Part shown: piece after piece, positions 1,268 to 64,000 of the stretch
Layout: each line of letters opens with the position of its first letter
Numbering within the stretch: position 1 is the stretch's first letter
NCBI GenBank assembly: GCA_035506275.1
Contig: DATJPT010000006.1
Location: 201,019 to 265,018, forward strand
Direction: 5' to 3'
DNA: 64,000 nucleotides
From: Bacteroidota bacterium
GTDB taxonomy: Bacteria; Bacteroidota; Ignavibacteria; UBA10030; UBA8401
The notes under the pieces: generated by a model
Database searches by the model: none
The model's input: only the letters and a program-made list of their open reading frames with translations
Told to the model about the DNA's origin: nothing
Made by a program: the position numbers and the translations under genes

Positions 1268-1300
1268 GGTCAAGAAATTGTAAAAGAATTGTCATGGCGA
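1268..1300 (-). promoter_or_regulatory. Three-unit direct repeat, 11-bp period (putative response-regulator site)
   Basis: On the plus strand, units start at 1268 (GGTCAAGAAAT), 1279 (TGTAAAAGAAT) and 1290 (TGTCATGGCGA), exactly 11 bases apart. The site lies 93 bp upstream of the secreted-protein ATG at 1175. It closely matches the site at 6710-6742. Helical-phase direct repeats are typical of OmpR/PhoB regulators. Assignment to the regulator at 6824-7504 is inference. Confidence 0.5.
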
Positions 1301-2099: not shown

Positions 2100-2228
2100 T
2101 CAGACGTTTGTTAAGTCTCCAGCAAATCCTTGCTCAATTAATAGACACCCCTTTTCCGTTTTCCGGAACATATGCTGGAGTTCACGTTTAATCGCTGCAT
2201 CCTTCCTGATGCGCCTTGCCTTTTTCAT
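2100..2228 (-). CDS. Possible 42-residue basic peptide
   Basis: A short frame whose ATG overlaps the TAA stop of the large secreted gene (TAATG arrangement), the usual geometry of translational coupling. The peptide is basic at its N-terminus (MKKARRIRKDAAIKRE) and ends in FAGDLTNV. No signal peptide, membrane segment or known motif is visible. It may simply be a chance frame in the 3' leader-out region of the large gene; only the start-stop overlap argues for it. Confidence 0.2.
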   Translation of the reverse strand: MKKARRIRKDAAIKRELQHMFRKTEKGCLLIEQGFAGDLTNV

Positions 2229-5200
2229 TATTTCAGTAAAAGCATCTTGCGCGTCTGGACAAACGAGCCGGTCCGAAGGGTATAGAAATAGACGCCGCTG
2301 GCGACAGAGCTCGCGTTCCACTGGACGGTATACTTTCCTGCGGGGCGCGTATCATCGACGAGCGATGCAACCTCCTGGCCGAGGACGTTATAGACTTTCA
2401 GCGTGATGTGTGCGCTTCCAGGGATCTCGAACTGGATAGATGTGCTCGGATTGAAGGGATTCGGGTAATTCTGCTCGAGCTTGAACTCCTGCGGGACGAG
2501 CTGACTGGTTGACTGCACGCCGGTAGGGTCGTTGAATTTGTTTTCCGAGTCGTACAGCGTTTGCGCACTTATCGCGGCGGCGGTCACTGCCGATGCCCCG
2601 TTTCCGGCAACAACGGCGATTGCAACAGTCACTGAATCACCGGGCTTGAGAGTAAACGGTCCGGCGCTCGTCAGCACGCGGTAGTCGCCTGCCAGATCAC
2701 ACACAGATGTACAGGTATCCTTCTTCATCGCTGTGTACCGTCCATCGTCTGTTATCGGATCATCCGGGTTCACCCACCATGTCATGCGGGCAGGCCTGCG
2801 ATCAAGCAAGCGCACCCCCATTGTCACTCCCTCCGGGGCCGTCGAATCGTACATGTAAATAAGGAAGTTGTTCTTGTCAATCCCGACCTTATCGTGTGCG
2901 CCGTATTGGGAGACATCGAAATCGAATGCCAATCCGATATAGGCATCGTTTATGTTCTGCTGAGAATACGGTCCGAAACCGGGCTCATAATAAATCGTGA
3001 ATTTGTGGATCGTGAAGTCGGACATTTTCGGCCCATAATTGTCCGAACGGACGACAAGATGCGAGATGTCGTCAAGCCGTTCATTGTCCATGTCCGTGAA
3101 ATACGTCCTGAGACCGCAGACTGAAGATCTTGTCAAGTGGGAAAAATTCGAGAGCGGGGTCCATGTGGTGAAATCAGGACCTTCGTAGGCTCCCCCCGAG
3201 ACGACGGTATCATTATCGATCAAGCCCCCCACCCAAAGATCCCCTTCGAATAAATAATTAGGACTGGAAAGATTCGGCCACCGTCCGCTCGGCTGGGTTG
3301 TATCGACCGTATTGTACCCGAACTGTCCGGTATTTGTGATCGTCATTCCGAGGTTCGATGTCACGAGCGAGGCGTACGGGCATCTCCGACGGAGGCTAAA
3401 ATTGGCAGCGGGATTCTGCGCATTGTCATTCACAATTATTTGTTCCGAACACTGCTGCAGCGGAACTCCCCCGGTACGTGAATAAAATTGCCCGGCGTAG
3501 CGATGTTCAGGGTCGGATGCCCGGAGGACATAGGTTCCGGACGGGAGTGCAAGAAAGTAAAAGCCTTCGTCGTCCGTTTCCGTGAATTCCTGGATACCGC
3601 CATCAACGCTCGCAGCGACAATTTTTATTCCTGCTATCCTTGCAATCGTTGAATCATCAATGGCCGTTCCAGAGATCCCCGCCCCCTCACTCAGATTGAA
3701 GTTAATGTTTCGCACCACGGACTCCGCAGAAACATGTATGCTGTCCGGGCTCTGCCACGAGTTCTTGTGGTTGTACCATTGTGTGGTGAAACCAGGCGCA
3801 TATGCACTTGCTAGGTATATTCCGGGCGAAAGACCTGGAACCGTGTAATTCCCCGTCAGGTTGGATGTGCCCATTTTGTAACACGAACCGTTCTGGATGC
3901 CGACATATGCCCCCGAAATCGCCCTTCCGTACGAATCTAGTACCTTCCCCATCACCGTTGACCCGAGCGGCATCTTGAAGTCGATGTTATTCCGAGTCTC
4001 CTCTATTCCCAGATCGATCGCCGTGGCAGAATCCCTTGTCGAGACGTTATTATACCACCAGTCTGCGTAGCCGTCTTTTTCCGCCTCGAGATAAATGTCC
4101 GTTGCGGGGGGAAGGCCTCCTACCTCATAGTGCCCGGTATCGTCGGTGACCGCATAAGCGATGAACGAACCGAGCTGGTTCGTTGCAAAAACCTCAGTGC
4201 CTGAAAGCAATTCATTCTTCCGGCTTTGCGTCGTTCCGGTAATCACTCCTCCGCGAACAAGGATGAAATTGATGTTACCGGTATTTTGGTCGGTCGTGAC
4301 GCTCACCGGCGTGGCATCGGCGAAGCTGCTAGCGCCGTTATACCACTGATCGAGATATGATGATGCGACGGCGGAGACGAAGTAGTGCCCGGTCATCAAC
4401 CCGGTGGCCTTGTAATAGCCCGAGTCATCAGAAAACGCAAACGATTGCCAGACGGACAAACTGTCGTAGACCACGACCTGGACGTTCGGTATCACCTTCC
4501 CCTGCCTATCGACAACACTTCCTGAAATACTTCCTCCGAGGGAGAGAGCAAAATCAATGTTCGGCGTGTTATACCCTTGCACGGTCTGGATGGGGGTCGC
4601 TGTTGCAAGAGTAGATGCCTGATGGTACCACTGACGAACGTACCCTTCGGCCTGAGTATAGGCAAAATACTTCCCGGTGTTCAATGGTCCGATAGTAAAT
4701 TTTCCAGATCCCCCGGACCACCCTGTCGAGACCTCAAGCCCTGCGCTGTCAAAGGCGATCACGTCTGCATCCAGGATCGGTCTTCCTCCATTATCGGTGA
4801 TCGTTCCAGAAAAACTCCCGCCACGGACCATCGGAAAATCTATTCGCTGAATGCCGCCGAAGATCGACGCGGAAGCTGATGCCCCGTAATAATAGCTTGA
4901 AGAAACATCAACCGAGTAAGAACCGTCGGAGAGGCTCATTTGATAATACCCGCTGTCGTTGGACACCGCGGTAACGTATGCTGACGATCCATACACCGAG
5001 ATCGATGCGCCCGAAACAGGGGCCTTCGTCTTCGAATCAGTGACAAAGCCGCGAATCCCACCCAGGACTTTTTTTACGACTAAATTGACATTGACGGCTC
5101 CGGCCTTGACAATCGGAGGGGTGGTCGTGAGTAGGTATCCTGGCGGGAGAGACGGAGTGACGATGTAGAGCTGCGACGAAGCTGTGTCGACTGGAATACT

Positions 5201-6592
5201 GTAGCTCCCGTTCGAAGAAGAAACGCTCGAATTTGGGAGCGTATCGCTTTGGGCACTGATCGGAACACCCCCTATGCCGGACTGACCGAGGGTGATGTTT
5301 CCCGAAATCGCGCCGGTCGCCTTGATGATCGAAATATCCTTGTTGATGGCGCCGCTCGCCTGAACCGGAACGGTGCATGAATTCTCCCCAAAATAATCGT
5401 TCGACCATTGAACTTCGACGTAGAGAGTCCATGTCCCTTTGCTCGCGCCGATTTTGTAGTATCCGTTCGAATCTGAATACGCGATCGTGGGGGGGGAACT
5501 CGGTGTGTTATTCATCTCGGCGACGATTGACGCCCTCGATACTGCCGCACCCGTTTGATCCCTTACGTATCCCTCGATAAGTGCCGGCGCAACCGTATAG
5601 ACAAGATTGACGACCGTCGTATCGCCCCAGAGGTTAATTACCCTATCATGAGGCGGAAGATATTCGCTTAAATTTCCCGTGAAGGCATCCGCGAATAAAT
5701 CTATGCCGGTGCTTTCCAGACCGGAAAAGTAGAGGGCGAATTTTCCGCTTGAATCGGTGAACGCAACTTGTTCATCAGCATCATACGCGATGATCGCAAC
5801 ATTTGGTGTTGCTGGAACCACTGTCCCGAGGAGAACAGACGAGCCCGTCGCCGGTTTGACGGTCAACGTTGCCGTCGCGACGGATTGATAATCATTCACT
5901 ACAACGATGAAATTTCCGATAGCCGGAAATTCACCGGTCTGAATCGTCGTTCTATAATTCCCTTGCGACGGGTCATAGTCGTTGTCATCGTTATCCATGA
6001 GAAGCATACGTTCCTGGATAAGAACATCCTGGGCGCTGAGCATTCCGTCGCCGTCGGCATCCAGATAAATGCTCATCGATGCCGAAATGGCGTTCGGCGA
6101 AAAACAAAACGTCAGCGTTATCGGGTCGCCGACATTGATGGTGTCATTTGCTACACCGTTGAGGAAGAGGCTGGAGGTCAGCACGCGCATTCCTGAACCT
6201 GCCTTGGCTGGATTGTGAACCTTCGGTGCTGTGAAGAATTTTGTCGGCCTCCCGAAAATAGTCACGCGCTTGCTTGTTTGAACGGCAGCAGCTTTTCGAG
6301 CTTTAGCTTTTTGCCGGGCCCTCACGGAAGCTTCATGGATTTTCTTCGCTAAAACACGTCCGCGGTGGATTTTCCTCAGGGTTTGAACCTGACGATCGAA
6401 TTTTTGGCTCGCCTCCCTGAGTGCCCTCAAACTGCTGTCGCGGGTTGACGTACGGGAAACGGTTCTACCGTTCGTGGTCATAACGGTATTTTTGCTGTTG
6501 TCTGCTTTCGAGCCAATCCGGCTGTTCCCGGCGGCGACGAATAAGAAAATGAATGCAGCCGACAATGAAAGAATCAAAGCACGTGTTTTCAT
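2228..6592 (-). CDS. Large type IX-secreted protein with about nine carboxypeptidase-regulatory-like repeats
   Basis: The protein has 1454 residues. Residues 1 to about 22 are a signal peptide. Residues about 55-115 are very basic and helical (many K, R, Q and A). A DADGDGMLSAQDV stretch near residue 178 looks like a calcium-binding dockerin-type loop. From about residue 250 to 1000 there are nine carboxypeptidase-regulatory-like (Ig/Cna-B-like) units, each starting with a form of ISGxVxD and containing DDSGYYxxxG. Four of the linkers carry a (Q/W)WYN motif. A unique region follows, then the type IX sorting domain: NYPNPFNPSTSIQF, VYNVLGQEV and a KMLLLK end. Export across the outer membrane by the type IX system is established for this tail type. 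Function is unknown; it may act in surface adhesion or glycan binding. A three-unit direct repeat lies 118 bp upstream. Confidence 0.9.
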   Translation of the reverse strand: MKTRALILSLSAAFIFLFVAAGNSRIGSKADNSKNTVMTTNGRTVSRTSTRDSSLRALREASQKFDRQVQTLRKIHRGRVLAKKIHEASVRARQKAKARKAAAVQTSKRVTIFGRPTKFFTAPKVHNPAKAGSGMRVLTSSLFLNGVANDTINVGDPITLTFCFSPNAISASMSIYLDADGDGMLSAQDVLIQERMLLMDNDDNDYDPSQGNYRTTIQTGEFPAIGNFIVVVNDYQSVATATLTVKPATGSSVLLGTVVPATPNVAIIAYDADEQVAFTDSSGKFALYFSGLESTGIDLFADAFTGNLSEYLPPHDRVINLWGDTTVVNLVYTVAPALIEGYVRDQTGAAVSRASIVAEMNNTPSSPPTIAYSDSNGYYKIGASKGTWTLYVEVQWSNDYFGENSCTVPVQASGAINKDISIIKATGAISGNITLGQSGIGGVPISAQSDTLPNSSVSSSNGSYSIPVDTASSQLYIVTPSLPPGYLLTTTPPIVKAGAVNVNLVVKKVLGGIRGFVTDSKTKAPVSGASISVYGSSAYVTAVSNDSGYYQMSLSDGSYSVDVSSSYYYGASASASIFGGIQRIDFPMVRGGSFSGTITDNGGRPILDADVIAFDSAGLEVSTGWSGGSGKFTIGPLNTGKYFAYTQAEGYVRQWYHQASTLATATPIQTVQGYNTPNIDFALSLGGSISGSVVDRQGKVIPNVQVVVYDSLSVWQSFAFSDDSGYYKATGLMTGHYFVSAVASSYLDQWYNGASSFADATPVSVTTDQNTGNINFILVRGGVITGTTQSRKNELLSGTEVFATNQLGSFIAYAVTDDTGHYEVGGLPPATDIYLEAEKDGYADWWYNNVSTRDSATAIDLGIEETRNNIDFKMPLGSTVMGKVLDSYGRAISGAYVGIQNGSCYKMGTSNLTGNYTVPGLSPGIYLASAYAPGFTTQWYNHKNSWQSPDSIHVSAESVVRNINFNLSEGAGISGTAIDDSTIARIAGIKIVAASVDGGIQEFTETDDEGFYFLALPSGTYVLRASDPEHRYAGQFYSRTGGVPLQQCSEQIIVNDNAQNPAANFSLRRRCPYASLVTSNLGMTITNTGQFGYNTVDTTQPSGRWPNLSSPNYLFEGDLWVGGLIDNDTVVSGGAYEGPDFTTWTPLSNFSHLTRSSVCGLRTYFTDMDNERLDDISHLVVRSDNYGPKMSDFTIHKFTIYYEPGFGPYSQQNINDAYIGLAFDFDVSQYGAHDKVGIDKNNFLIYMYDSTAPEGVTMGVRLLDRRPARMTWWVNPDDPITDDGRYTAMKKDTCTSVCDLAGDYRVLTSAGPFTLKPGDSVTVAIAVVAGNGASAVTAAAISAQTLYDSENKFNDPTGVQSTSQLVPQEFKLEQNYPNPFNPSTSIQFEIPGSAHITLKVYNVLGQEVASLVDDTRPAGKYTVQWNASSVASGVYFYTLRTGSFVQTRKMLLLK

Positions 6593-6709
6593 GATGGTCC
6601 TCCCGGAATGAGGAATGATGCGAGCCCCTCAAATTTCCCCGACAACACATGGCTTAGGATTATCTGGAGATCAATGTAATGGCCGTTTCGCTCCTTTTTG
6701 TCTCGAATC

Positions 6710-6742
6710 TGTCAAGGATTTGTAAAAGAAATGTCATAGCGG
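6710..6742 (-). promoter_or_regulatory. Three-unit direct repeat, 11-bp period (putative response-regulator site)
   Basis: On the plus strand, units start at 6710 (TGTCAAGGATT), 6721 (TGTAAAAGAAA) and 6732 (TGTCATAGCGG), 11 bases apart. The site lies 118 bp before the ATG of the large secreted gene (6592) and 82 bp beyond the stop of an OmpR-type regulator (6824). It is near-identical in units 2 and 3 to the site at 1268-1300. Confidence 0.55.
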
Positions 6743-6823: not shown

Positions 6824-7504
6824 CTACTTCACGAACTTGTAGCCCGCCGTATGAACGGTGAGGAGATGGATTGGTCTGGAGGGGGATGGTTCTATCTTCT
6901 TCCGTAAGGAGAGAATATAATTATCGACAGTGCGGGTCGTCGGCATTGCATCGTATCCCCAGACCTCATCGAGCAGCATGCTGCGTGAAATGACCTTTCC
7001 CTCACGTTCGACGAAAAACTTCAACAACTGAAATTCCTTTGCGCTCAGTTTCAGCTTCTTCTCCCCTTTCGTGGCTTCTTGTCTTTCAAAATCAGCGTGC
7101 ACGTCGCCGAATCGGACCTCCCGTACGGCAGACTGGATCCCGGATTGGCGGCGCAGCAGGGCTTTGATACGCGCGATGAATTCTCTGAGGCTGAACGGTT
7201 TTGTCATGTAATCATCGGCGCCGATTTCGAGTCCCAGCACTTTATCCGTCTCCCGCTTCTTATTCGTGAGCATCAGGATGGGCGTTTGGACCCCTTTACT
7301 CCGAAGATCGCGGCAAATGTCTTTCCCGTTTTTGCCGGGTAAAATCAGGTCTAACACGATGAGCGATATGCTCTCACTTTCCGCCATACGAAAACCCTTT
7401 TCTCCGTCCGTTGCAGAGAGAACCGAGAACCGCTCCTCTGTCAACGCATCGCTCAAGACCTGTTGAAGAGCCGTATCATCTTCTATGATCAGGATTGTTT
7501 TCAT
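6824..7504 (-). CDS. OmpR/PhoB-family response regulator
   Basis: The protein has 226 residues from the ATG at 7504. An upstream in-frame GTG at 7537 exists, but only the ATG has a G-rich ribosome site (GGGGA). The receiver domain (residues 1-120) has the acidic pair D9/D10, phospho-acceptor D52 (LIVLDLILPG), T80 and K102 (YMTKPF). The C-terminal winged-helix domain (about 130-226) shows KLKLSAKEFQLLKFF and TVDNYILSLRKKIE. It binds DNA when phosphorylated, typically at direct repeats one helical turn apart. It is followed on its own strand by the large secreted gene and preceded, 36 bases away, by its probable partner kinase. Candidate sites are 6710-6742 and 1268-1300. Confidence 0.93.
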   Translation of the reverse strand: MKTILIIEDDTALQQVLSDALTEERFSVLSATDGEKGFRMAESESISLIVLDLILPGKNGKDICRDLRSKGVQTPILMLTNKKRETDKVLGLEIGADDYMTKPFSLREFIARIKALLRRQSGIQSAVREVRFGDVHADFERQEATKGEKKLKLSAKEFQLLKFFVEREGKVISRSMLLDEVWGYDAMPTTRTVDNYILSLRKKIEPSPSRPIHLLTVHTAGYKFVK

Positions 7505-7540: not shown

Positions 7541-9994
7541 TCAGGAATGATCCAACGGAAACGAGAGCGTAAAAACGGATCCTTTTCCCAGTTCACTCTG
7601 AACGCTCACCTCTCCGCGGTGGACATCCATGATGTGTTTTACGAGCGACAGGCCGAGCCCAATCCCCTGGACAGGCCCGCTGTGCGCCGGGTCGCGATAG
7701 AATTTTTCAAACACTCTTGGCAGCGCCTCTTTGGAGATCCCGTCCCCCCGGTCTGTGATCCTGCATAACGCACGTCCTTTTTGTTTTCTCACTTCGACAA
7801 GGATCGTTCTCTTCCCCGACGAGTATTTGACAGCGTTAGTGAGCAAATTGACGATCGCTTCCCCAACCGCGTCGGCGTCGGCGCGGATGGTGAGCTTCTT
7901 GTTCGGCACGTGAACACTCACGCTGAATTTATTTGCTTTGAATTGATACTTCATGGCATCGACATTCTTCTTCACGACGGCGCATAGGTCGATCCCGCAA
8001 AACGTATATTCTTTGATGCCATTTTCAATGCGGGCCGAGTCGAGAAGATTGGTCACCATCCTCCCGAGCCTCTCGGCCTCGCCATGAATGACGTCGAGGT
8101 ACCTCGCTGCCTTCGCCCTTCGCAATCCCCGCCGCCGGAGAAGGCCGACGAGCATGTTGATCGACGTGAGCGGCGTACGGAACTCGTGCGACACGTAAGA
8201 GACGAACTCGGATTTCAGCGCGTTGAGTTCCTCACTCCTCTTTTTCGCCTCACGCTCCAGAACCAGCCGCTCCTGCAACAGCATGCGATCCAGCGTGTCG
8301 GCGGTTTGAGCGCACAGTGTCGCGACAAAGCCGATCTCGTTCTCATCGAACTTGTCGTTCGGCGAGCGGGGACGCACCCCGACGGCCCCGTAGACCTCGC
8401 CGCCTTCAGTTCTGATCGGCACGCATACCGCATAGCCCATTTCGGCCAGACACTGCGACTCGGACAGGTTTATTCCTGCGCCCGAAAAGGAGAGTGCGCC
8501 GGGTTTTGCCATCGTGCGCGACGTTCGCAGTGAAGCGGAGAAGCCGTCCGGCAGAGGCATTATTTCCCGCGCCGTCATTCCCGATCGAGCCTTCAGCAGA
8601 AGCTGGCCATTGTCCATCCCGTAGACGGCGACGGATTCTGCCGGAATGATCTTCCACACCGACGAGGCGAGCTTCCTGAACAATTCTTCGGTACTGATCA
8701 CGGCATGGAGTCCTTCGCTCATTTCCATGACCGCGGCACGAAAATTAGTGCGGGCAGCGAAGAGAGATTCATCGATGAATTGCTGAACTTTCTTTCGCAG
8801 CGGGTTCATGAGCCATGCCACAAGCAGCGAAACTCCGACCACGAACAAGTAATGTTCAAACACCTCCTTGCCGCCGATCAGCGAAACGAGGATCAGAACG
8901 GTCAGGACATAAGAGGCGGCAACGAAGACCGTCAGCACCGAGTAGACGACGCTGCGGTTGATCACAACGTCGATGTCGAACGACCGGTACTTCATGAACG
9001 ACACGGCAAAGGTAAACGGAACTACGAGAAAGAAGATCGTCGTGAATTCTTCGTCAATGAGGTACCGGGAAAAAAATATCTGAGGCAGGATGTAAAGGGC
9101 TAGGAACGGTACGGCAGCGACGATCAGTCCCCATAAGATCCACTTCAGACGCAATCGATCTTCGGACGTTTCGGACGTGGTGTAGGCGTGGACGATATTG
9201 ACAATCCCGCCGCCGATGTACAGTATCATCGCCACGTGGAAAATATTGTAGACCGACTGAAACGAATCAAAATGTTCGATCGAGCTAAGGCTCAGAGCCT
9301 TCAGATAGAAGTACGATGACGCCGTGCAGAGGAGCGCCGCCGGGACGAACGTCGCCGCCGCAATCAGGAGGACCGAGGTGTGTTTCCGCCGCGGATACAG
9401 GGCCGTAAAAAAGAAAAAGACTGGAACCCCGACCTCGTACGAGAATAGGAAGATGACCGGTCGGTAGACGGTCTCAACCGTATTCGGGAGGACCGCCCCC
9501 CATGTCAGCATAACGTCGGCAGCGAAGAAGACCATCACCCAATGGAGGACCCTCCCCACAAGCTCATGCCAGCCGTTCCATAAAATATAAATGCCGATCC
9601 CCCAAATGGCTATCCCCGCAAAGAGCGATATGACGATGAATCGCAGACTAGGGTAGTACGGTACGAGCGTGACAAAACAACTTCCGGTCTCGCCTCTGCG
9701 CTGATACTCAACGGGAGCTTTTTCTCCGATCGACGCGAGATCCCCAAGAAATTCCATTTCTTCCGGCGTCCGCACAAAATGGTCCCGAAAACGAACCAGC
9801 TTGTCCCCTTCGCACAATGCACCGCTGAGTGCCGCATCGGAAATTTGCCCGACGGTAAGCCGGTCGCCCCCGTCAACCACGCCAAAAGGGGTTGTCGCCC
9901 GCTGGAGGAGAGAAGGGATATGGAGAAGGGAAACGGCAAGGATCGAACAATCTATCGCAAAATACAACCAGATGCGGAAGGTGAACTTCTTCAT
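7541..9994 (-). CDS. Membrane sensor histidine kinase with PDZ-like, multi-TM and GAF domains
   Basis: The protein has 817 residues from the ATG at 9994, which has GGGG just upstream; another ATG at 10006 lacks one. TM1 is about residues 7-30. A PDZ-like periplasmic segment follows (about 36-113, with GDKLVRF). Seven or eight membrane helices occupy about 118-395, ending in MKYRSFDIDVVINRS, a stretch shared by 7TM/GAF kinases. A GAF domain covers about 425-570. The HisKA helix has phospho-H603 (VSHEFRTPLTS), and the ATPase domain shows NLLTNAVKYS, DRGDGIS and GIGLGLSLVKH. It probably autophosphorylates in response to an envelope or membrane signal and passes phosphate to the regulator at 6824-7504, which follows after 36 bases. 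Confidence 0.92.
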   Translation of the reverse strand: MKKFTFRIWLYFAIDCSILAVSLLHIPSLLQRATTPFGVVDGGDRLTVGQISDAALSGALCEGDKLVRFRDHFVRTPEEMEFLGDLASIGEKAPVEYQRRGETGSCFVTLVPYYPSLRFIVISLFAGIAIWGIGIYILWNGWHELVGRVLHWVMVFFAADVMLTWGAVLPNTVETVYRPVIFLFSYEVGVPVFFFFTALYPRRKHTSVLLIAAATFVPAALLCTASSYFYLKALSLSSIEHFDSFQSVYNIFHVAMILYIGGGIVNIVHAYTTSETSEDRLRLKWILWGLIVAAVPFLALYILPQIFFSRYLIDEEFTTIFFLVVPFTFAVSFMKYRSFDIDVVINRSVVYSVLTVFVAASYVLTVLILVSLIGGKEVFEHYLFVVGVSLLVAWLMNPLRKKVQQFIDESLFAARTNFRAAVMEMSEGLHAVISTEELFRKLASSVWKIIPAESVAVYGMDNGQLLLKARSGMTAREIMPLPDGFSASLRTSRTMAKPGALSFSGAGINLSESQCLAEMGYAVCVPIRTEGGEVYGAVGVRPRSPNDKFDENEIGFVATLCAQTADTLDRMLLQERLVLEREAKKRSEELNALKSEFVSYVSHEFRTPLTSINMLVGLLRRRGLRRAKAARYLDVIHGEAERLGRMVTNLLDSARIENGIKEYTFCGIDLCAVVKKNVDAMKYQFKANKFSVSVHVPNKKLTIRADADAVGEAIVNLLTNAVKYSSGKRTILVEVRKQKGRALCRITDRGDGISKEALPRVFEKFYRDPAHSGPVQGIGLGLSLVKHIMDVHRGEVSVQSELGKGSVFTLSFPLDHS

Positions 9995-10185
9995 GGTGCC
10001 CCGCAATGCGGTGGTGGGAAAGCTGGTGCAATAGTACCGAGGATAATCTTAAGAGTCAAGCAGGATGTCGCCGTCTGGCTCAACGAACCTTTGATCCAAA
10101 GGATTTCCCGGGCATCAGGAGAGAAAAAGCTCACCACCAACCGGAACCCGATTGGAGGAACAGGGAGATGAAAAAATCAGCGGGG

Positions 10186-22139: not shown

Positions 22140-23237
22140 TTATTTCCCGAGCCTTCTGATCTCGATATTCCCGTTGGTTGTTTCGAGCGTGATCCGATCG
22201 CCGCCGCCGTTCAACTGATAGACGGCATGAATCTCCTGTTCATGTTTATCGGTGGTCTTCAACTCCTCCTTGAAATCGGAATGGATGTCGTATTCATCTT
22301 CATGGCGCATCCATCCGCCGCGAAGCCTGATCGTTGCATCGATCGTCGCTTTCGCCGTCGAAGGAACCGAGAGGACCACGTTCCCGCCGGATGAGCGGAG
22401 TTCGCTTGGACCTTTTCCGCTTGGAATCAATTCTGCCTCGACGTCGCCGCCGGCGGTCTTCGCGTCGATCGAACCGGTGATATTCTGGAGCCGGACATTG
22501 CCGCCGGCTGTTTTCGCTTCGACCGTGCCGCTGGCGCTGCTCAGGTCGATATCGCCGCCGGCCGTCCGGAGCGAAGCGTTTCCGGAAACTTTCCCTACCT
22601 TCACTTCTCCCCCCGACGTAGAGAGAATGGCGTCGCCGCCGACATCGCCTACTTCAACATCTCCTCCGGCCGTCGAAGCCTTCAGCGATTTTCCCACTTT
22701 CTCGACCCTGATCTCTCCGCCGGACGTTTTGACATCGGCCTCGCCGCTGACGGTGCCGAGCCAGATATCGCCGCCGGAGGTTTTCAGGTCCGTCGTTCCC
22801 TCAATATCGGCCGTCCGGATGTCCCCGCCGGACGTCGAGCCGGTCAACTTTCCCTTCATCGATCCGCGGACATCGATATTCCCTCCCGACGTGCGGACGT
22901 CGGCGTCGAACTGGGCGGGGAGGCTGATCTTGAACAGCACGTCGCCGGACCAATTCCACCGCGGGCGGTAATCAATGCGCACGGTGTTCCCGGACTGCGT
23001 CATCTTCACATAATCCATGTCCTCTTCGTCGATGCCGTCGACGACAACGTTGACCTCATCCTTGTCCCAGGTGTTCAGCTGGATGTCGCCGCCGCTGATG
23101 TTGACCTCGAGCTGCCCCCCTTTTGTGACGGTGAACGTCTTTGCTTCCTTACTTTCTTCGCCGCCGCGGACCGCGGCGTATGAATTCGCCGAGGCGAGAA
23201 TGAGCGCGCTCAGCGCTATGGTGAATAGTGTTTTCAT
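22140..23237 (-). CDS. DUF4097-family beta-helix-like putative adhesin
   Basis: The protein has 365 residues. A signal peptide covers residues 1-22. The body is a ladder of about eleven units, each with (S/A)GG(D/E/N)(I/V) at 16-21 residue spacing (for example SGGDIRT, SGGEIRV, AGGDVEV, AGGDIDL), the mark of DUF4097/DUF2807 right-handed beta-helices. It ends in EIRRLGK. It is the last gene of a cassette: ECF sigma factor, anti-sigma/HEAT protein, then this gene, which overlaps the anti-sigma gene by 4 bases. A strong terminator follows. Its role in envelope stress is inferred from this context. Confidence 0.9.
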   Translation of the reverse strand: MKTLFTIALSALILASANSYAAVRGGEESKEAKTFTVTKGGQLEVNISGGDIQLNTWDKDEVNVVVDGIDEEDMDYVKMTQSGNTVRIDYRPRWNWSGDVLFKISLPAQFDADVRTSGGNIDVRGSMKGKLTGSTSGGDIRTADIEGTTDLKTSGGDIWLGTVSGEADVKTSGGEIRVEKVGKSLKASTAGGDVEVGDVGGDAILSTSGGEVKVGKVSGNASLRTAGGDIDLSSASGTVEAKTAGGNVRLQNITGSIDAKTAGGDVEAELIPSGKGPSELRSSGGNVVLSVPSTAKATIDATIRLRGGWMRHEDEYDIHSDFKEELKTTDKHEQEIHAVYQLNGGGDRITLETTNGNIEIRRLGK

Positions 23238-24232
23238 CGGTGTTCAACCTCCTCCATGACGGTTCGCGCTTGACGGCGAACGTAGTTATTGTTGTCTGAT
23301 GCCATTTTCTTCTTGATGATGCCGAGAATGTCCGGATCAAAGCGATGCCCGTCCACGCTTGCCGCCGCGAGGCCGTTGATCGCCGCGATGCGCATCCCGG
23401 AGTTCTTGTCGTGCGTTAGAGTATAGACCAATGCCTGTTTGATGTCGTCGTCGAGCGGTTGCCTTAGCAGCACGCGCAGCGCCTCTTGCCGGACTCCGGG
23501 GTTCGCATCCCCTTTGAGCGCCGAGAGAAGCGCGGCTTTCACCTCCGGGTCAAGGTTCTTTTGCCCGGAGCTTTGCGATGAAATTGCATTGACCGTCTGA
23601 AGCCGCACACCCGGATTTTCTTCGTTCACGAGCGCGCGGGCGAGGACTTTCTGCACCTTTTCGTCATTGATGTTTCCGCGGACGTGCACCGGCGTCACGG
23701 CATCGAAGGTGAATTCGACAGAGCCGTCTTTTCCTCCGGCGTCGATCAGGTGAAGGTCGGACGTTCTGGTATTTCCCTGGGTGAATGACTCCGCGGCATT
23801 GCCGGACAGCACCGCCTGTTCGACGGCCGGCGTTTCGAGGGGAATCGCCTTCATTTCCATTTGCGGCCGGGAAAAGACCGCATAGCCGATGAGAATGCCG
23901 AGCGCAGCCATGGTGATTCCCCCAAAGGCAGTTTTATATTCCCGAACTAAAAGATCCCTGACCGCCTCGACGATCCCATCCCACACAGATCTCTTCAGCC
24001 GGTATTCGAGCAGGGACGAGTGTAATTGCCGGCGCGCTTCCTGGAGGAGCCGGCCCGACACTTCCACCGGCGGATTTCCGGCAATGACCGATCGAAATTT
24101 CCCGAGCTCTTTCAATTCAGCCCTGCACTCCGCGCATCCGCTCAGGTGTTCCTGGAGCAGCTCCTTCGCGTCGCCGTCCAGCTCATCGATCACCGACAGG
24201 TGAAGCCATTCCTTAAACTGTGCATGTCGCAT
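23234..24232 (-). CDS. Anti-sigma factor with zinc-finger, TM helix and HEAT repeats
   Basis: The protein has 332 residues. The N-terminus has the zinc-binding anti-sigma motif H29-x3-C33-x2-C36 (EHLSGCAEC). A membrane helix lies at about 104-122 (TMAALGILIGYAVF). The periplasmic part carries HEAT-like repeats at about 195-330 (NEENPGVRLQTVNAI, GDANPGVRQEALRVLL, DKNSGMRIAAINGLA, DNNNYVRRQARTVM). The N-terminal domain should hold the ECF sigma factor encoded 12 bases upstream, released on an envelope signal; the HEAT part may sense or bind a partner. Fusing HEAT repeats to a zinc-finger anti-sigma domain is less common. Confidence 0.88.
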   Translation of the reverse strand: MRHAQFKEWLHLSVIDELDGDAKELLQEHLSGCAECRAELKELGKFRSVIAGNPPVEVSGRLLQEARRQLHSSLLEYRLKRSVWDGIVEAVRDLLVREYKTAFGGITMAALGILIGYAVFSRPQMEMKAIPLETPAVEQAVLSGNAAESFTQGNTRTSDLHLIDAGGKDGSVEFTFDAVTPVHVRGNINDEKVQKVLARALVNEENPGVRLQTVNAISSQSSGQKNLDPEVKAALLSALKGDANPGVRQEALRVLLRQPLDDDIKQALVYTLTHDKNSGMRIAAINGLAAASVDGHRFDPDILGIIKKKMASDNNNYVRRQARTVMEEVEHR

Positions 24233-24244
24233 CGTGTTGTCCCT

Positions 24245-24823
24245 TCATTCAAAAACATCTTTCAGCCTCTCTCTCATCCGCTGGGTTGCCGTGAAGAGAT
24301 GTTTTTTCACCGTCCCTTCAGTGCACTGCATCACCACGGCAATCTCCCTCAACTTCAACCCCTGATAATGCTTCAGCGTAAAGACCATTTTTTGCTGCGG
24401 CGAAAGAGCATCCATCGCATCCTGCACGTGCCCGGATATTTCACCGTCTATGACGCGCTGGTCCGGGAGCGGATCGCCGGACACTGCTATATTCGCCGGG
24501 TGCGGCTCTCCTTCATTCTCCTCGCGGTCGTCGTCCAGGGACACATGCGCCTGCTTTTTCCTTCTCGACCGGTGCGTCAGGCAGACGTTCGTCGTGATCC
24601 GGTAGAGCCACGTCGCGAACTCGCTCTGCATTTTGAACCGGCGCAGCCCCTGGTAGACGCGAAGGAAGACCTCCTGGTAGATGTCCTTCGCGTCGTCGGA
24701 GTTCCGGACAAAGCGGGCGGCAATGGTCAGCACCTCTTTGTCGTACCGGAACACGAGCTGCTCGAAGGAGGAAAAATCGCCGCGCTGTGCTTTTTGAATA
24801 AGTTCGATATCGTCTGGCGCCAT
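24245..24823 (-). CDS. ECF-type RNA polymerase sigma factor
   Basis: The protein has 192 residues. Region 2 is clear (FEQLVFRYDKEVLTIAARFV, then DDAKDIYQEVFLRVYQGL and FATWLYRITTNVCL), and region 4 is LSPQQKMVFTLKHYQGLKLR followed by EIAVVMQCTEGTVKKHLF (residues about 135-175). It is an RpoE-like sigma that directs polymerase to its own promoters when freed from the anti-sigma factor encoded next (gap 12 bases). Regions 1 and 3 are absent, as expected. It is the first gene of the three-gene cassette and may regulate it. Confidence 0.95.
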   Translation of the reverse strand: MAPDDIELIQKAQRGDFSSFEQLVFRYDKEVLTIAARFVRNSDDAKDIYQEVFLRVYQGLRRFKMQSEFATWLYRITTNVCLTHRSRRKKQAHVSLDDDREENEGEPHPANIAVSGDPLPDQRVIDGEISGHVQDAMDALSPQQKMVFTLKHYQGLKLREIAVVMQCTEGTVKKHLFTATQRMRERLKDVFE

Positions 24824-25428: not shown

Positions 25429-25839
25429 TTAGTCCGTCCGCGAGCTGTAGATTCTTTGGTGAAGCTGTGTCTCGACCGACTCGAAGAACTCTTTTTCGGA
25501 GTACACGTTCACGCTGCCGGCAAACCATGCCGGGTTGTCGAACACATTCGAGGCGAGGTATGCTTTGTAACGGACCGAAGGGGTCCCGGCATGAACCATC
25601 AGGCTGTCGACCACTTCCCGTGCTTCTCCCACCGTGCAGCCGGGGTAGAGGATGCCGATTTGAGCCATCTGCTTGATCGCCGATTCGGTCAATCCCTGAT
25701 TCTCGGACCGCAAGGCGATGACCAGATTCACCATTGCTTTATTGACTTTGTGTTCCGATGTGGAAAGAGCTTGTGCCATAGCTCCTGTGTAGGCTGCCGC
25801 CGTCAATATCGCTGCTGCTATCATTGTGTGCTTTTTCAT
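25429..25839 (-). CDS. Small secreted helical hypothetical protein
   Basis: The protein has 136 residues from the ATG at 25839, preceded by GGAGGAAG; the longer frame to 25959 has no ribosome site. A signal peptide covers residues 1-23 (ends GAMAQ). The mature part is helical (VNLVIALRSENQGLTESAI, GCTVGEAREVVDSLMVHAG). No known family. It stands alone, ends in a strong terminator and has the three-unit direct repeat at 25934-25963 about 95 bp upstream, suggesting tight regulation by a two-component system. Confidence 0.8.
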   Translation of the reverse strand: MKKHTMIAAAILTAAAYTGAMAQALSTSEHKVNKAMVNLVIALRSENQGLTESAIKQMAQIGILYPGCTVGEAREVVDSLMVHAGTPSVRYKAYLASNVFDNPAWFAGSVNVYSEKEFFESVETQLHQRIYSSRTD

Positions 25840-25933
25840 GACTTCCTCCGTTGTAAGATGTGGTGTTCGTTGTGGATCGATTTCTTTTTTCAACTCTATG
25901 AACGATGCCGCACAGTAAAAGATGTCTCGGATG

Positions 25934-25963
25934 CGTAAAGAGTTGTCACGAATTGTCACGGGA
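25934..25963 (-). promoter_or_regulatory. Three-unit direct repeat, 10-bp period (putative response-regulator site)
   Basis: On the plus strand, units start at 25934 (CGTAAAGAGT), 25944 (TGTCACGAAT) and 25954 (TGTCACGGGA), 10 bases apart. The site lies 95 bp before the ATG at 25839. Its unit types match those of the site at 27727-27756. Confidence 0.55.
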
Positions 25964-26144
25964 TAAAACTCAACGTGCAGCCGTCAAGGATCGACGAGCC
26001 GCACGCAAAGAAGGAAAACAACAAACCGAAGCGACGCTGCTGCACCTCTGCGAGTCGCAGCTTCATCGAGCGGCCGCCCGCAGCCGCCTTTCTGCGGAAA
26101 ACGCGACCGTCATGATCCGCGACTGGTTATGCAGTGGTCCTCAG

Positions 26145-26537
26145 TTAAAAGGTGGACTGATAGTATAAGCTTTCATCTCCCCTCATCACCGTCCCCACCA
26201 CAACAACACTAGAACTGCTCGCCTTGAGATCCGGCTGACCGCCGACCTTCTTTGATCTTATTAAATCAACGACCAGATCTCCACCTCCCGACATCTTGAC
26301 AATTGTTGCATTGACATAATTCGACTCAACGGTAATCTCGTATGGAGTTTGTTGTATCGTATTGTCAAGCCTTACTTTGTCTGTCTTGAAAAATATCGAC
26401 GCGACAAAAGCTACTGAGTTCTCGCTGCTCGATGTCACACGAAGTGTCAGCTTCTGAGGCTCATTGTAGCCGGTTTGCGTAAAGGAGGTGTTTGCGACGC
26501 ACAATGAAACTGCAAATATAACAAGACAGTATCTCAT
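26145..26537 (-). CDS. Secreted hypothetical protein, beta-rich
   Basis: The protein has 130 residues. A signal peptide covers residues 1-20 (ends TSFTQ). The rest looks like a small beta-sandwich (LTLRVTSSSENSVAFVASIF, ATIVKMSGGGDLVVDLI, SSSVVVVGTVMRGDESLYYQ). No family is recognised. The gene is visibly more AT-rich than its neighbours, which may hint at a different origin. It lies between two other secreted-protein genes. Confidence 0.7.
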   Translation of the reverse strand: MRYCLVIFAVSLCVANTSFTQTGYNEPQKLTLRVTSSSENSVAFVASIFFKTDKVRLDNTIQQTPYEITVESNYVNATIVKMSGGGDLVVDLIRSKKVGGQPDLKASSSSVVVVGTVMRGDESLYYQSTF

Positions 26538-26613
26538 ATCTACCTCACGGGTTGAACTGCGTTCGTAAATTTATGATTGAAGGAATTTGCCGCTCTTTGG
26601 CAAATTCGGGCCG

Positions 26614-27666
26614 TTATCGAAAGATGTCGAAGATATTCCAATGCCAGTTGTCGTTCCAATCATTATTGTTGTTCTCGTTATCGGTGTGTTTCCGCTCCCA
26701 CCGGCGGTAATGCTCTCGCGTCGTAAAGCCGACCGGCCCATCGTAAATTCCGCCGTGGAGGAAATGGTCGAACACCCGGACCGCCAGAACATTTTCGCCG
26801 CCGAATTTGATGAGGTCCGACGGCACGGTATAGGCGCGGAATTTTTTGTACTCCCATCCTTGAACATGTCTGGTCCCCGTGCGGCCAACCCGCTCGCCGT
26901 TCAAATACGTTTCATCGACATCGTCGACCTTTCCGACCAGCAGCACAAGATCCTGATCTTTGAATCTCTCCGGCATCGTAAAGCGGACGCGGTACCAGCC
27001 GTATCCGTCGTAATCTTTCAGCCCTTGCGTGTCCCAGTACGCGGGCACGATCACTTCGGGCCAATCTGAATCGTCGTACGACGGCTTTGCCCAGTCGTCG
27101 TCATCCCCTTTTTCGAGCCTCCAGGTTCCCTCGATCGGGATATCGGGATAAAGATAATCCTTCATCTCGAACACGCCGGGCTTCCCCTGATTCATGCCGC
27201 CGTTCAGCTGGTCGTCGTAGACGCGCACAGCAATGACGTTTTCCCCCGAAAAATTCAAATATCCTTTCGGGACGATGAATTTCTGATCGACGTTGTAGGC
27301 CGTGATATAATGCGGGGGAAACGAGCCGGTGAAACTCACAAAACGTCCGTTCAGGTACACTTCGCTGACGTCGTCGATGCAGCCGAGATGGATATAGACC
27401 GGTTTGTCGCGCTCGTCGGGAGAAATGCGGAAGCGTCTCCTGTACCAGGCGTAGCCGTCGTATCCGGGATAGCCTTCATCCTCCCAATTTGCCGGAACGA
27501 AGATCTCATCCCATTTGCTGTCGTCGTACTCCGGCTTCGCCCATTTCTGATTGTCCCCCAGTTTGAACTTCCATTGCCCGCGAAAATCGACAAGCATCTT
27601 CCAGTCCTGCGCATCGCTGCGGTCGATCATCAGAAGCGCAAATACTATGAAGGTCCAGTATCGCAT
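26614..27666 (-). CDS. Secreted protein with two galactose-binding-like (GH2 N-terminal-type) domains
   Basis: The protein has 350 residues. A signal peptide covers residues 1-19. Two copies of the sugar-binding jelly-roll seen at the N-terminus of family 2 glycosidases are visible: first at about 25-165 (WKFKLGD, FVPANWEDEGYPGYDGYAWY, VYLNGRFVSFTG, NVIAVRVYDD), second at about 175-320 (WRLEKGD, IVPAYWDTQGLKDYDGYGWY, TYLNGERVGRTG, NVLAVRVFDH). No catalytic domain follows. The tail is short and rich in Asn, Asp and Trp (NENNNNDWNDNWHWN). It probably binds carbohydrate; an enzyme role is not supported. A three-unit direct repeat lies 61 bp upstream. Confidence 0.82.
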   Translation of the reverse strand: MRYWTFIVFALLMIDRSDAQDWKMLVDFRGQWKFKLGDNQKWAKPEYDDSKWDEIFVPANWEDEGYPGYDGYAWYRRRFRISPDERDKPVYIHLGCIDDVSEVYLNGRFVSFTGSFPPHYITAYNVDQKFIVPKGYLNFSGENVIAVRVYDDQLNGGMNQGKPGVFEMKDYLYPDIPIEGTWRLEKGDDDDWAKPSYDDSDWPEVIVPAYWDTQGLKDYDGYGWYRVRFTMPERFKDQDLVLLVGKVDDVDETYLNGERVGRTGTRHVQGWEYKKFRAYTVPSDLIKFGGENVLAVRVFDHFLHGGIYDGPVGFTTREHYRRWERKHTDNENNNNDWNDNWHWNIFDIFR

Positions 27667-27726
27667 ATATCCTCCTTGTTAACTCCTGAAAGCTATTATG
27701 AAGAGAGATGAGATGTGTCGCAGGGA

Positions 27727-27756
27727 AGTAAAGAGATGTAAAAAGTTGTCACGGAG
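27727..27756 (-). promoter_or_regulatory. Three-unit direct repeat, 10-bp period (putative response-regulator site)
   Basis: On the plus strand, units start at 27727 (AGTAAAGAGA), 27737 (TGTAAAAAGT) and 27747 (TGTCACGGAG), 10 bases apart. The site lies 61 bp before the ATG at 27666 and 123 bases beyond the stop of the OmpR-type regulator at 27879. Confidence 0.55.
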
Positions 27757-27762
27757 GAGTAT

Positions 27763-27853
27763 CAGTAGGCAGTAGGAGGTAGGCAGTAGGCAGTAGGCAG
27801 TAAGCAGTACTCAGAGTGCTTACTCTTTACTCCTTACTCCTTACTCTTTGCTC
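27763..27853. repeat. Heptad array with inverted halves, 13 units
   Basis: Thirteen 7-base units in register from 27763. The first half is CAGTAGG-type (CAGTAGG four times with variants CAGTAAG and CAGTACT); the second half is CTTACTC-type, roughly its complement. GTAAGC and GCTTAC pair across the centre, so the array can fold as a hairpin. It lies between the secreted protein (start 27666) and the response regulator (stop 27879). Confidence 0.75.
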
Positions 27854-27878
27854 CTTGGCGCGGTGTAGGCTACGATCC

Positions 27879-28559
27879 CTACGGAAGCAATTTATAGCCG
27901 GTGCCGTGGATGGTGATGATATGGCGGGGTTTGGATGAGGATGGCTCGATTTTCTGCCGTAATTTTGCGATAAAATTGTCGACGGTGCGGGAGCTGATCG
28001 ATTCGTCATATCCCCAAACGTTCGTGAGCAGGGCGTCGCGTGTGACCGCCTGGTTCTGGTGCTGCCAGAGAAACCGGAGAATTTCAAATTCCTTCGATGT
28101 CATCTCGACGGCTTTCCCTCTTTTTGTTGCTTCGTACGTCGAGAAGTCGAGCTCAAGGTTTCCGATCTTTGTTTTCCCCGGCAGTTCCGATCCCCCCTCT
28201 TTTCTCCTGAGCACCGCCTTAATGCGCGCAAGCAATTCGCGAAGGCTGAACGGCTTGGTGATATAATCGTCGGCCCCTAGCTCCAAACCGAGCACCTTGT
28301 CGACCTCTTCCCCTTTCGCCGTCAGCATCACGATCGGCACGCGCACCCCCTTTTCCCGCGCCCGCTTGCAGACATCGAAGCCGGACATTTCGGGGAGCAT
28401 GACATCAAGAAGAACCAGGTCATACGTATGATTCAGAATTCTTTTTAATCCCTCTTTGCCCCCGCCGGCAATGTCCACCTTATACCCCTCGAATTCCAGA
28501 TTGTCTCTCAACCCTTTCTGCATCTCGGGTTCGTCTTCAACAAGCAAAATTGCCGTCAT
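27879..28559 (-). CDS. OmpR/PhoB-family response regulator
   Basis: The protein has 226 residues. The receiver domain has D9 and phospho-acceptor D52 (LVLLDVMLPEMSG), with T and K in VMLTAKG and YITKPF. The winged-helix output domain (about 130-226) has FSTYEATKRGKAVEMTSKEF and TVDNFIAKLRQKIE. Its start overlaps the kinase stop by 4 bases (ATGA), so the two form one translation unit. It is a close paralogue of the regulator at 6824-7504. The gene that follows on the same strand, a secreted sugar-binding protein, has a candidate binding site at 27727-27756. Confidence 0.95.
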   Translation of the reverse strand: MTAILLVEDEPEMQKGLRDNLEFEGYKVDIAGGGKEGLKRILNHTYDLVLLDVMLPEMSGFDVCKRAREKGVRVPIVMLTAKGEEVDKVLGLELGADDYITKPFSLRELLARIKAVLRRKEGGSELPGKTKIGNLELDFSTYEATKRGKAVEMTSKEFEILRFLWQHQNQAVTRDALLTNVWGYDESISSRTVDNFIAKLRQKIEPSSSKPRHIITIHGTGYKLLP

Positions 28560-30202
28560 GATCTTCGCGCCTGCTTTCGTTCACGTTGGATGGCCGATGA
28601 ATTTCCTTCGTCTATAACTTTTCTGATCGGGAGCAGAAGGCGAAAAACGCTCCCTTCTCCCGGAGCGCTGCTCAGTTCGACGGAACCGCTATGGGCTCTC
28701 ATGATATGGTCCACCAGCGCCAGGCCGAGGCCGCTCCCTTTGGTCGTATGGACCAACCCTGTCGACACGCGGTAAAATTTCTCGAAAATCTTCGCGTGAT
28801 GTTCAGGGGCGATGCCGATCCCGTGGTCCTGCACTTCGACGAACGCGGACGATTCGGAGGTGCCGGTCGCGATCCGGATGTACCGCCGATCGCCGCTGTA
28901 CTTCATCGCGTTATCGACAATGTTGTGAAGGGCTTCTTCGATCGCCTCTTCGTCGCCGAGGACCGCCGGCACGTGCTCTGCAAGTTCAAGGACGACCTTG
29001 AACCGCTGCTTTCTGAGCTGCGGCGCATAGAACCCGATGACCTTCGACGTCAGCCCGTTCAGGTCGAGTTCGCGGAGCTGATAATTTCTCTTGCCCGCCT
29101 CCATCCGGGAAAAATTCAGGAGGTTGTTCACGAGATGCGTCAGACGCTCGGACTCCTGGATGATCGTGCGATAGTACTCGTGCTTCTTCTTTTCGGTCTT
29201 GATCCGCTTCAGTTCGAGCGTTTCGGCGAACATCCGGATGAGCGACAAGGGCGTCCGCAGCTCGTGCGAGACGTTCGACACAAAATCGGATTTCAACTGG
29301 ATGAGCTGCATTTCACGGCGAAGGGTCCGGTAGATCAGGAAAACCCCGGCGAGGAGGACAATATCCAGTATGATAATGATCGTCATATTCCGGTAGAACC
29401 GGGATTCGACGAGCTCGTCGATCGTTCTCCCCTTCAGCCGGATACCGAGCGTGTAATCAGGAAACAGCCAGAGAGGTTTCTCCTGCTTGATCTCGTCCCG
29501 CAGCACCGGCGAGGTTGCGTCCGCGACTTTTCCCGTCTTCCGGTTGATCGCCGCAAGGACAAATTCGTCCCCCGCCGCTTCGCCGAGTTTTCTCAGGAGA
29601 ATGTCGTGGATGAAGCTTCGTTCATCGAGGACGATCCCGACGATACGCGGCACGGCGGCGTAATCCTTCGTGATGAACGCCAGAACGACGGGGACCTCTT
29701 TTTCAAGCGAATCGTTGAACGCAAGGGGTTCGATCTTCCTGTACTCGACGCGCTGAAAATCGATCAACCGACCGATCTTATCCCTGTTCTTCCGGAGCTG
29801 CGCGCGAAGCGTGGTCTCGTTAAACCGGGGAAGGCGGGTGCGCGCTTCGCCCGATTCGACGAGGATGATGCCGGCGAACGAGGTGTCGCAATTGAAGACC
29901 GCCTGAACGGTCCCGTGCTGCCTGATAAAATCGTGCAGCGATTGGACGAACTCGACGGCGGAGCGCGATCTCCGGTCCGAGACGATGTTCTGCAGCGTTC
30001 CGGCCCACGACGAGACGGCGTCCCACGCATATTGATTGACGGAAAAGAGGATGACGTCGAGCTGCTGGCGGTACATTGCCCCGAACATCTCCTCGCTGCT
30101 GCTGAGCGAGCTGATCTCGTAGCCGGAATAGAACAGGGCCGGAAGAAGAACGATGACCAGAAGGATCAGCGAGACTTTTTTTAGCGAAGAGAACGAGTTC
30201 AC
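28556..30202 (-). CDS. Sensor histidine kinase with extracytoplasmic domain
   Basis: The protein has 548 residues. TM1 is about 10-27, TM2 about 273-292, enclosing a sensor domain of about 245 residues with no recognised fold (contains FNCDTSFAGIILVESGEART). The HisKA helix has H313 (VSHELRTPLSLIRMF), and the ATPase domain shows NIVDNAMKYS, DHGIGIAPEH and GSGLGLALVDH. It phosphorylates the response regulator at 27879-28559, with which it overlaps by 4 bases. Domain architecture is standard for an envelope-sensing kinase. The start is an ATG with no strong ribosome site seen. Confidence 0.93.
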   Translation of the reverse strand: MNSFSSLKKVSLILLVIVLLPALFYSGYEISSLSSSEEMFGAMYRQQLDVILFSVNQYAWDAVSSWAGTLQNIVSDRRSRSAVEFVQSLHDFIRQHGTVQAVFNCDTSFAGIILVESGEARTRLPRFNETTLRAQLRKNRDKIGRLIDFQRVEYRKIEPLAFNDSLEKEVPVVLAFITKDYAAVPRIVGIVLDERSFIHDILLRKLGEAAGDEFVLAAINRKTGKVADATSPVLRDEIKQEKPLWLFPDYTLGIRLKGRTIDELVESRFYRNMTIIIILDIVLLAGVFLIYRTLRREMQLIQLKSDFVSNVSHELRTPLSLIRMFAETLELKRIKTEKKKHEYYRTIIQESERLTHLVNNLLNFSRMEAGKRNYQLRELDLNGLTSKVIGFYAPQLRKQRFKVVLELAEHVPAVLGDEEAIEEALHNIVDNAMKYSGDRRYIRIATGTSESSAFVEVQDHGIGIAPEHHAKIFEKFYRVSTGLVHTTKGSGLGLALVDHIMRAHSGSVELSSAPGEGSVFRLLLPIRKVIDEGNSSAIQRERKQARRS

Positions 30203-62446: not shown

Positions 62447-63112
62447 CTACTCGATATCTTGCGCGTGGTGTTTTACGATCTTTGCATCGACGAGATAGAC
62501 CACATCCTCCGAGATGTTCGTTGCATGGTCGGCGAGGCGCTCGAGATGACGCGACAGGACGATGATATGAGCCGCCGGTTCGATGATCTCAGGATGGGAC
62601 TTCATCTCCGAAACGAGGAAGTTGAAAATATTTTTGTTGAGGTTGTCGACAAGGTCGTCCTTCGGAAGGATCTCGCGAGCGAGGTCCGGATCGTTATTCA
62701 CGAACGAATCGATCGCATGCTTCACCATTTCCCGCGCGATGCTCGACATTTCGATGACGCGGGATCTCCGCAGCAGTTCAAGGTTGTATTGAAGCGATAT
62801 CGCCCGCTCGGCGATGTTGACCGCAATGTCCCCCATCCGTTCCAGTTCATGGTTGATCTTCAGCGCCGCCATGATCAGCCTCAGGTCTGTGGCAACCGGC
62901 TGCGTGAGCGCGAAGATCCGTTCGCACTGCGCATCGATGAGGTTGTCGAACCCGTCGACCTTGCCGTCGCGATCCATCACCAGCCGCGCCCGTTCGACGT
63001 TCGATTCAAGCAGGGCCGTCGTTGCGAGGTCGATCTGTTCGTCCACAAGACTTCCCATCTTGATGATATTCGTGCGAAGTTGGTCGAGCTCTATTTCAAA
63101 ATGTCGGGGCAT
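62447..63112 (-). CDS. phoU: Phosphate transport system regulator PhoU
   Basis: The protein has 221 residues. It is all-helical with the two PhoU repeats; MDRDGKVDGFDNLIDAQCER and RMGDIAVNIAERAISLQYN (about 91-109) are typical, as is the C-terminal SRHLERLADHATNISEDVVY. PhoU tempers phosphate uptake and signals to the phosphate two-component system. It follows pstB on the same strand, with a 7-bp-unit array between. The usual order pstB-phoU is preserved. No regulator gene for phosphate is adjacent. Confidence 0.95.
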   Translation of the reverse strand: MPRHFEIELDQLRTNIIKMGSLVDEQIDLATTALLESNVERARLVMDRDGKVDGFDNLIDAQCERIFALTQPVATDLRLIMAALKINHELERMGDIAVNIAERAISLQYNLELLRRSRVIEMSSIAREMVKHAIDSFVNNDPDLAREILPKDDLVDNLNKNIFNFLVSEMKSHPEIIEPAAHIIVLSRHLERLADHATNISEDVVYLVDAKIVKHHAQDIE

Positions 63113-63119
63113 GAGGGAT

Positions 63120-63168
63120 AAAGTAAAAGTTAAAAATGAAAAGGAAAAAATTAAAATTACAAATTTAG
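63120..63168. repeat. Heptad array, A-rich
   Basis: Seven 7-base units from 63120 (AAAGTAA, AAGTTAA, AAATGAA, AAGGAAA, AAATTAA, AATTACA, AATTTAG). It lies between the pstB stop (63188) and the phoU start (63112), starting 7 bases before phoU. Confidence 0.68.
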
Positions 63169-63187
63169 GATCTGGTAATAAGAATGA

Positions 63188-63937: not shown

Positions 63938-64000
63938 AGTTTTTTCCGGTTCACGTTTGCTTCCGATGACGAGCGGCGCCTGTGTGACCTTTTCGTCAAT

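Follow-up and report, generated by a model that had tools for sequence, protein, structure and literature searches.

Direct-repeat arrays with 10-bp and 11-bp steps at the loci of two sister OmpR/PhoB-family response regulators

Genes of the regulator loci

The window, a stretch of 64,000 nucleotides from a Bacteroidota bacterium, carries two OmpR/PhoB-family response regulators, R1 and R2, each accompanied by a histidine kinase. R2 is the neighbour of two genes for secreted-looking products.

6824..7504, minus strand: R1, sister OmpR/PhoB-family response regulator, candidate reader of the 11-bp class of arrays
7541..10006, minus strand: HK1, GAF-containing histidine kinase, putative partner of R1
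25429..25839, minus strand: target 1, small secreted protein of 136 amino acids with no Pfam match; its family is kept behind the 10-bp arrays of relatives
26145..26537, minus strand: small open reading frame (ORF) whose start resembles a signal peptide, 76 bp downstream of target 2
26614..27666, minus strand: target 2, secreted protein of 350 amino acids with two beta-galactosidase-type jelly-roll domains
27879..28559, minus strand: R2, OmpR/PhoB-family response regulator, candidate reader of the 10-bp class of arrays
28556..30202, minus strand: HK2, histidine kinase overlapping R2, its putative partner

Both regulators consist of a receiver domain (PF00072) and a Trans_reg_C winged helix (PF00486), each above its cut-off. 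Scores against the NCBIfam equivalogs fall short for PhoB (TIGR02154: R2 215.2 and R1 203.6 versus 296.2 bits), WalR/YycF (NF040534: 230.9 and 194.0 versus 340 bits), CpxR (NF008199: 163.0 and 157.7 versus 341 bits) and OmpR (NF007005: 194.6 and 187.6 versus 331 bits). In a tree of 135 response regulators, R1 and R2 define sister clades, each well supported, within a joint clade (99/92), in agreement with an initial annotation of this DNA that had called them paralogous. The two clades have R191, T192, D194, N195, L200 and R201 of the recognition helix in common and differ there at F/Y196 and K/S199; further fixed differences between the clades in the DNA-binding domain lie at positions 142, 153, 154, 189, 214, 219 and 224. 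The closer solved relatives of R2 include Mycobacterium tuberculosis PhoP. HK1 has GAF, HisKA and HATPase domains, preceded by a 435-residue N-terminal part with no Pfam match that looks, by eye, PDZ-like and then membrane-spanning.

The small ORF at 26145..26537 may be co-transcribed with target 2. Just beyond target 1, at 22140-24823, an ECF sigma factor, a zinc-finger and HEAT-repeat protein (likely the anti-sigma factor) and a repetitive secreted protein stand in a row. The interval between the R2 stop codon and the nearest array holds minisatellite-like GGCAGTA units followed by CTTACTC units (27768-27870), a run that occurs nowhere else in the window; a structured fold of the repeat stretch 27757-27878 was considered and rejected, its z-score of 0.13 being no better than that of shuffles. 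The phoU and pst transport genes at 62447-64000 (and in L272) continue past the end of the window, and a PhoB-like regulator and a kinase follow about 10 kb beyond.

Repeat arrays and promoter anatomy

Two positions of the window, 25935 and 27728, and no others match the pattern GTMAM-N5-GTMAM-N5-GTMAM, against a chance expectation of 0 (0 in 100 dinucleotide-preserving shuffles); among steps of 6 to 17 bp, 10 bp is the only one at which these words form a triple in the window. These two copies, both beside R2, are also the only exact 10-bp triples of the 3.7-Mb genome; matches with one mismatch are, genome-wide, not above a reversed-pattern control. The arrays, operators A and B, and the elements that accompany them are as follows.

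25934..25959, minus strand: operator A, words 25934-25939, 25944-25949 and 25954-25959 at exact 10-bp steps; sense strand GTGACAATTCGTGACAACTCTTTACG
25923..25926, minus strand: conserved GACA, one 11-bp step downstream of operator A
27727..27752, minus strand: operator B, words 27727-27732, 27737-27742 and 27747-27752 at exact 10-bp steps; sense strand GTGACAACTTTTTACATCTCTTTACT
27716..27719, minus strand: conserved GACA, one 11-bp step downstream of operator B
27690..27695, minus strand: putative -7 promoter element TAGCTT, exactly 31 nt downstream of operator B

The initial annotation had described two triples spaced exactly 10 bp, 95 and 61 bp from the ATG of genes for secreted proteins, with the regulator at 27879-28559 as neighbour, and all of this is correct. 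It had also built both triples of the same words, which holds for B (GTAAA-GTAAA-GTCAC); A reads GTAAA-GTCAC-GTCAC and lacks TGTAAAAAGT. These words are written on the strand opposite to the target genes, and the gene-sense reading is GTGACA / TTTACA / TTTAC. Its unit of three words at 10 bp stands as far as it goes, the array being longer by the conserved GACA, 11 bp further toward the gene. Both operators are kept at the orthologous promoters of relatives. Although the words are short, the shuffles, the copy number of two per genome and this conservation refute an origin of the arrays by chance or as a dispersed repeat family, to which we give almost no weight.

Read in the gene sense, the R2 operator is GTGACA-N4-TTTACA-N4-YTGACN-N7-GACA-TCTTT, then, as a promoter element 31 nt downstream, GTAnnnT. 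Of 42 R2-type sites, for which as many as two mismatches were allowed, 30 have GACA at +7 from the last word. TAnnTT stands at +31 in 17 of the 42 and at any other offset in one at most, and T at +31 and A at +32 are each found in 33. Site A has no good TAnnTT at +31. The conserved GACA may be a fourth regulator word or an upstream (-33) promoter element; a search for GACA as a general promoter element in a small sample of 17 promoters gave no signal. The step from the last word to GACA is a conserved 11 bp, one per array, so a 10-bp step throughout the whole array is rejected, and, should GACA be a word, an 11-bp step may be acceptable to R2.

The 11-bp class is equally real, with arrays at 1269 and 6711 against an expectation of 0.02, both in the neighbourhood of R1.

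1268..1295, minus strand: 11-bp array GTCAA/GTAAA/GTCAT, upstream of the gene at 630-1175
1231-1236: TACATT, 31 nt downstream of the array at 1268..1295
6699..6737, minus strand: 11-bp array of three exact words and one degenerate word, upstream of the gene at 2228-6592
6673-6678: TACATT, accompanying the array at 6699..6737

At R1 sites the corresponding promoter element lies at +20 or +31, that is, one 11-bp word apart. Taken with the R2 anatomy, this places the promoter-nearest words 20 and 31 nt from the -7 element in both classes; the distal words diverge, at 41 and 51 nt for R2 versus 42 and 53 nt for R1. The arrays consist of head-to-tail direct repeats about one helical turn apart, as in OmpR/PhoB-family operators, and a promoter element follows them closely at a set distance downstream, the architecture of class II activators.

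Spacing segregates with the regulator locus

Orthologues of R1 and R2 were sought in 80 related genomes, and in the loci examined the spacing segregates completely with the regulator locus. The 1.5-kb flanks of R2 orthologues hold 14 exact triples, all at 10 bp, and those of R1 orthologues hold 6, all at 11 bp; these flanks have no exact triple at any other step from 8 to 14 bp. With one mismatch allowed, the R2 loci (431 kb) contain 20 triples at 10 bp and 0 at 11, and the R1 loci (303 kb) contain 15 at 11 bp and 0 at 10. An unguided pass over the 250 nt preceding each ORF, in which some ORF windows share a promoter, returned 31 strong arrays at 10 bp and 0 at 11 for R2 loci, 20 at 11 bp and 0 at 10 for R1 loci, and 0 to 1 arrays for each of the other steps. 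Free mixing of the two spacings in relatives, which the initial annotation had named as the outcome that would overturn its proposal, is not seen.

A tally of spacing classes against regulators had been suggested along with it, and in it the 10-bp class follows the presence of R2. Counted per genome, by pattern searches and in stretches around the matches, and irrespective of kinship, strict 10-bp sites are present in 20 of 35 genomes with R2 and in 1 of 45 without (Fisher 1.5e-8), and the 10-bp sites come from about 16 genera belonging to four families. The single case is G009, which has a 10-bp site and no detected R2 orthologue; an apparent further exception, G072, was resolved: next to its site lies an R2 orthologue that a frameshift has split. 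Two genomes of one genus (G050 and G070; loci L244 and L245) keep R2 and both targets and show no clear 10-bp array. Counts of the 11-bp class follow R1 in their turn: of the 25 R1-bearing genomes 12 have strict sites, as against none of the 21 with R2 only, and such sites are also present in 5 of 34 with neither regulator. Because five genomes thus carry strict 11-bp arrays with no detected R1, this class is not exclusive to R1, and another regulator may share it.

The genes behind the arrays differ between the classes. Relatives' 10-bp arrays precede the same two families as here, the small secreted protein and the jelly-roll secreted protein. Members of the small-protein family also lie behind 10-bp sites on other contigs, found by pattern alone, in four genomes (G009, G011, G017 and G018), and in G072 the small-protein promoter has its 10-bp array beside the split R2. 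The 11-bp arrays precede the outer-membrane-like family of the gene at 630-1175 (L249, L251), a large type IX secreted protein and 5'-nucleotidases. With two unrelated families at 10 bp and several unrelated genes at 11 bp, the spacing follows the regulator and not one gene family. Five loci (L253, L282, L284, L287 and L288) have 11-bp TGTCA arrays before 5'-nucleotidase genes, some in genomes with no detected R1, hinting at a link to phosphate scavenging or at a further regulator that uses the 11-bp class.

A Marinoscillum regulator, the nearest outgroup relative of R2, falls on the R2 side of the tree (100/93), and its locus has two 10-bp arrays (L007, 7893 and 8442), 0 at 11 bp, and a jelly-roll target. 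Since this strain combines an R2 relative, 10-bp arrays and a jelly-roll target, the R2 system probably reaches beyond the order of the window.

Spacing, words and known systems

Our preferred interpretation, which we consider likely, is that the 10-bp arrays are the operators of R2 and the 11-bp arrays those of R1, with the step between words as the main feature that separates the two regulons; binding, activation and insulation by spacing are what we infer from the arrangement of the DNA. Phosphorylated R2 would line up head to tail along a single face of the DNA, with each TGT(A/C)A word taking one winged-helix domain. Placed immediately upstream of the RNA polymerase site and in contact with it, R2 would activate the two promoters, of the small secreted protein and of the jelly-roll secreted protein, in the class II manner, and R1 would do likewise from the 11-bp arrays at its own targets. 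The step of 10 or 11 bp would be set by the packing of neighbouring DNA-binding domains.

The step is assigned this role because the words themselves are nearly the same: pooled single words of R1 and R2 diverge by 0.27 bits of 7.4, as the initial annotation had anticipated in speaking of almost identical recognition words. The three words taken without their spacing nevertheless classify 92% of R2 sites and 68% of R1 sites correctly, above shuffled labels, and at this balanced accuracy of about 80% word content does contribute. Judged only by their words, the two core R1 sites here look R2-like, which makes spacing the clearest difference in this genome.

It is accordingly conceivable, though in our judgement unlikely, that the arrays are R2 and R1 operators at which it is mainly words, flanks and kinase-regulator pairing that discriminate, and that the step is a historical packing difference with no insulating role. 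The accuracy reached from words alone and the recognition-helix differences at 196 and 199 speak for this, as does the fact that CpxR (PMC9600279) and PmrA (PMC3973317) are described with both spacings. The small divergence and the R2-like scores of the two R1 core sites speak against it, and segregation is complete by spacing and incomplete by words. Repression at the 10-bp arrays, with bound R2 blocking RNA polymerase at the adjoining promoter, seems to us improbable. GACA overlaps the position of the upstream promoter element, and the E. coli pho box is oriented relative to its gene in the reverse of the words here, both of which would suit a repressor; the three core words, however, stop 31 nt before the -7 element, where class II activators usually sit. 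Less credible still, and hardly to be expected, is that the arrays belong to another regulator, such as the PhoB-like one at G000:C6:276436 or a one-component factor, and are neighbours of R2 only by accident. The 10-bp site of G009 would fit that explanation, R2 being a reader predicted from sequence; the joint occurrence of 10-bp sites and R2 (20 of 35 genomes with it, 1 of 45 without), the adjacency to R2 across several families and in Marinoscillum, and the absence of any 10- or 11-bp (TGTCA) triple from this genome's pst/PhoU/PhoB-like region all argue against it.

Returning to the step as the main separating feature, we also entertain a stronger form, in which the sister regulators would be insulated purely by the 1-bp difference in step, fixed soon after the duplication and held since; we regard this two-way spacing code as possible, at slightly below an even chance. 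A split in step length could keep two look-alike signalling pathways from mixing. The separation of promoters between near-identical response regulators is usually credited to kinase specificity or to changes in the recognition helix. In the natural pair R1 and R2 the words hardly differ, and across an order of bacteria the loci examined show no exception to the segregation of the step. What half-site spacing contributes can thereby be tested directly, and a design rule for separating synthetic two-component circuits could follow.

Among known systems, M. tuberculosis PhoP is a direct precedent (PMC4832192): an OmpR/PhoB-family regulator with tandem direct repeats and strict spacing, for which a spacer shorter by 1 bp costs about 20-fold in affinity, and binding improves when two repeats become three or four. 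It differs in its 7-bp motif with a 4-bp spacer (an 11-bp step) and in its word, and is not known from that paper to have been compared with a sister regulator. The PhoB box of Pseudomonas aeruginosa and E. coli, GTCA(C/T)-N6-GTCA(C/T), has nearly the word and exactly the 11-bp step of the R1 class (PMC8041468), but R1 and R2 score below the PhoB family cut-off and the pst region of this genome has no such triple. The E. coli CpxR box is GTAAA-N5-6-GTAAA, and operator B literally holds GTAAA-N5-GTAAA at a 10-bp step; CpxR, however, is described with both 5- and 6-bp gaps (PMC9600279), and R2 lies far below its family cut-off. PmrA likewise binds boxes with 4- or 5-bp gaps (PMC3973317), and since CpxR and PmrA are each described with both spacings, spacing need not be exclusive. 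E. coli OmpR, as cited in PMC7380067, binds 20-bp sites of two tandem 10-bp half-sites, an arrangement like that of the 10-bp class; R2 differs in scoring below the OmpR family cut-off and in having targets unrelated to porins.

E. coli NarL and NarP (cited in PMC7380067) resemble R1 and R2 as related response regulators with a heptamer word in common and different accepted arrangements. They belong to the NarL family and use inverted 7-2-7 sites, and according to that source NarP is restricted whereas NarL accepts many arrangements, so that they show no two-way split by step length. In the open-licence literature we found no pair of sister response regulators told apart by spacing, and none in the OmpR family with a two-way 10/11 split. 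The direct-repeat rule of nuclear receptors has one half-site word, with the receptor chosen by spacing; those receptors are eukaryotic, act as heterodimers and are proteins unrelated to R1 and R2. By analogy, and with a confidence that stops just short of the midpoint, the two-way spacing code might be a bacterial counterpart of that rule.
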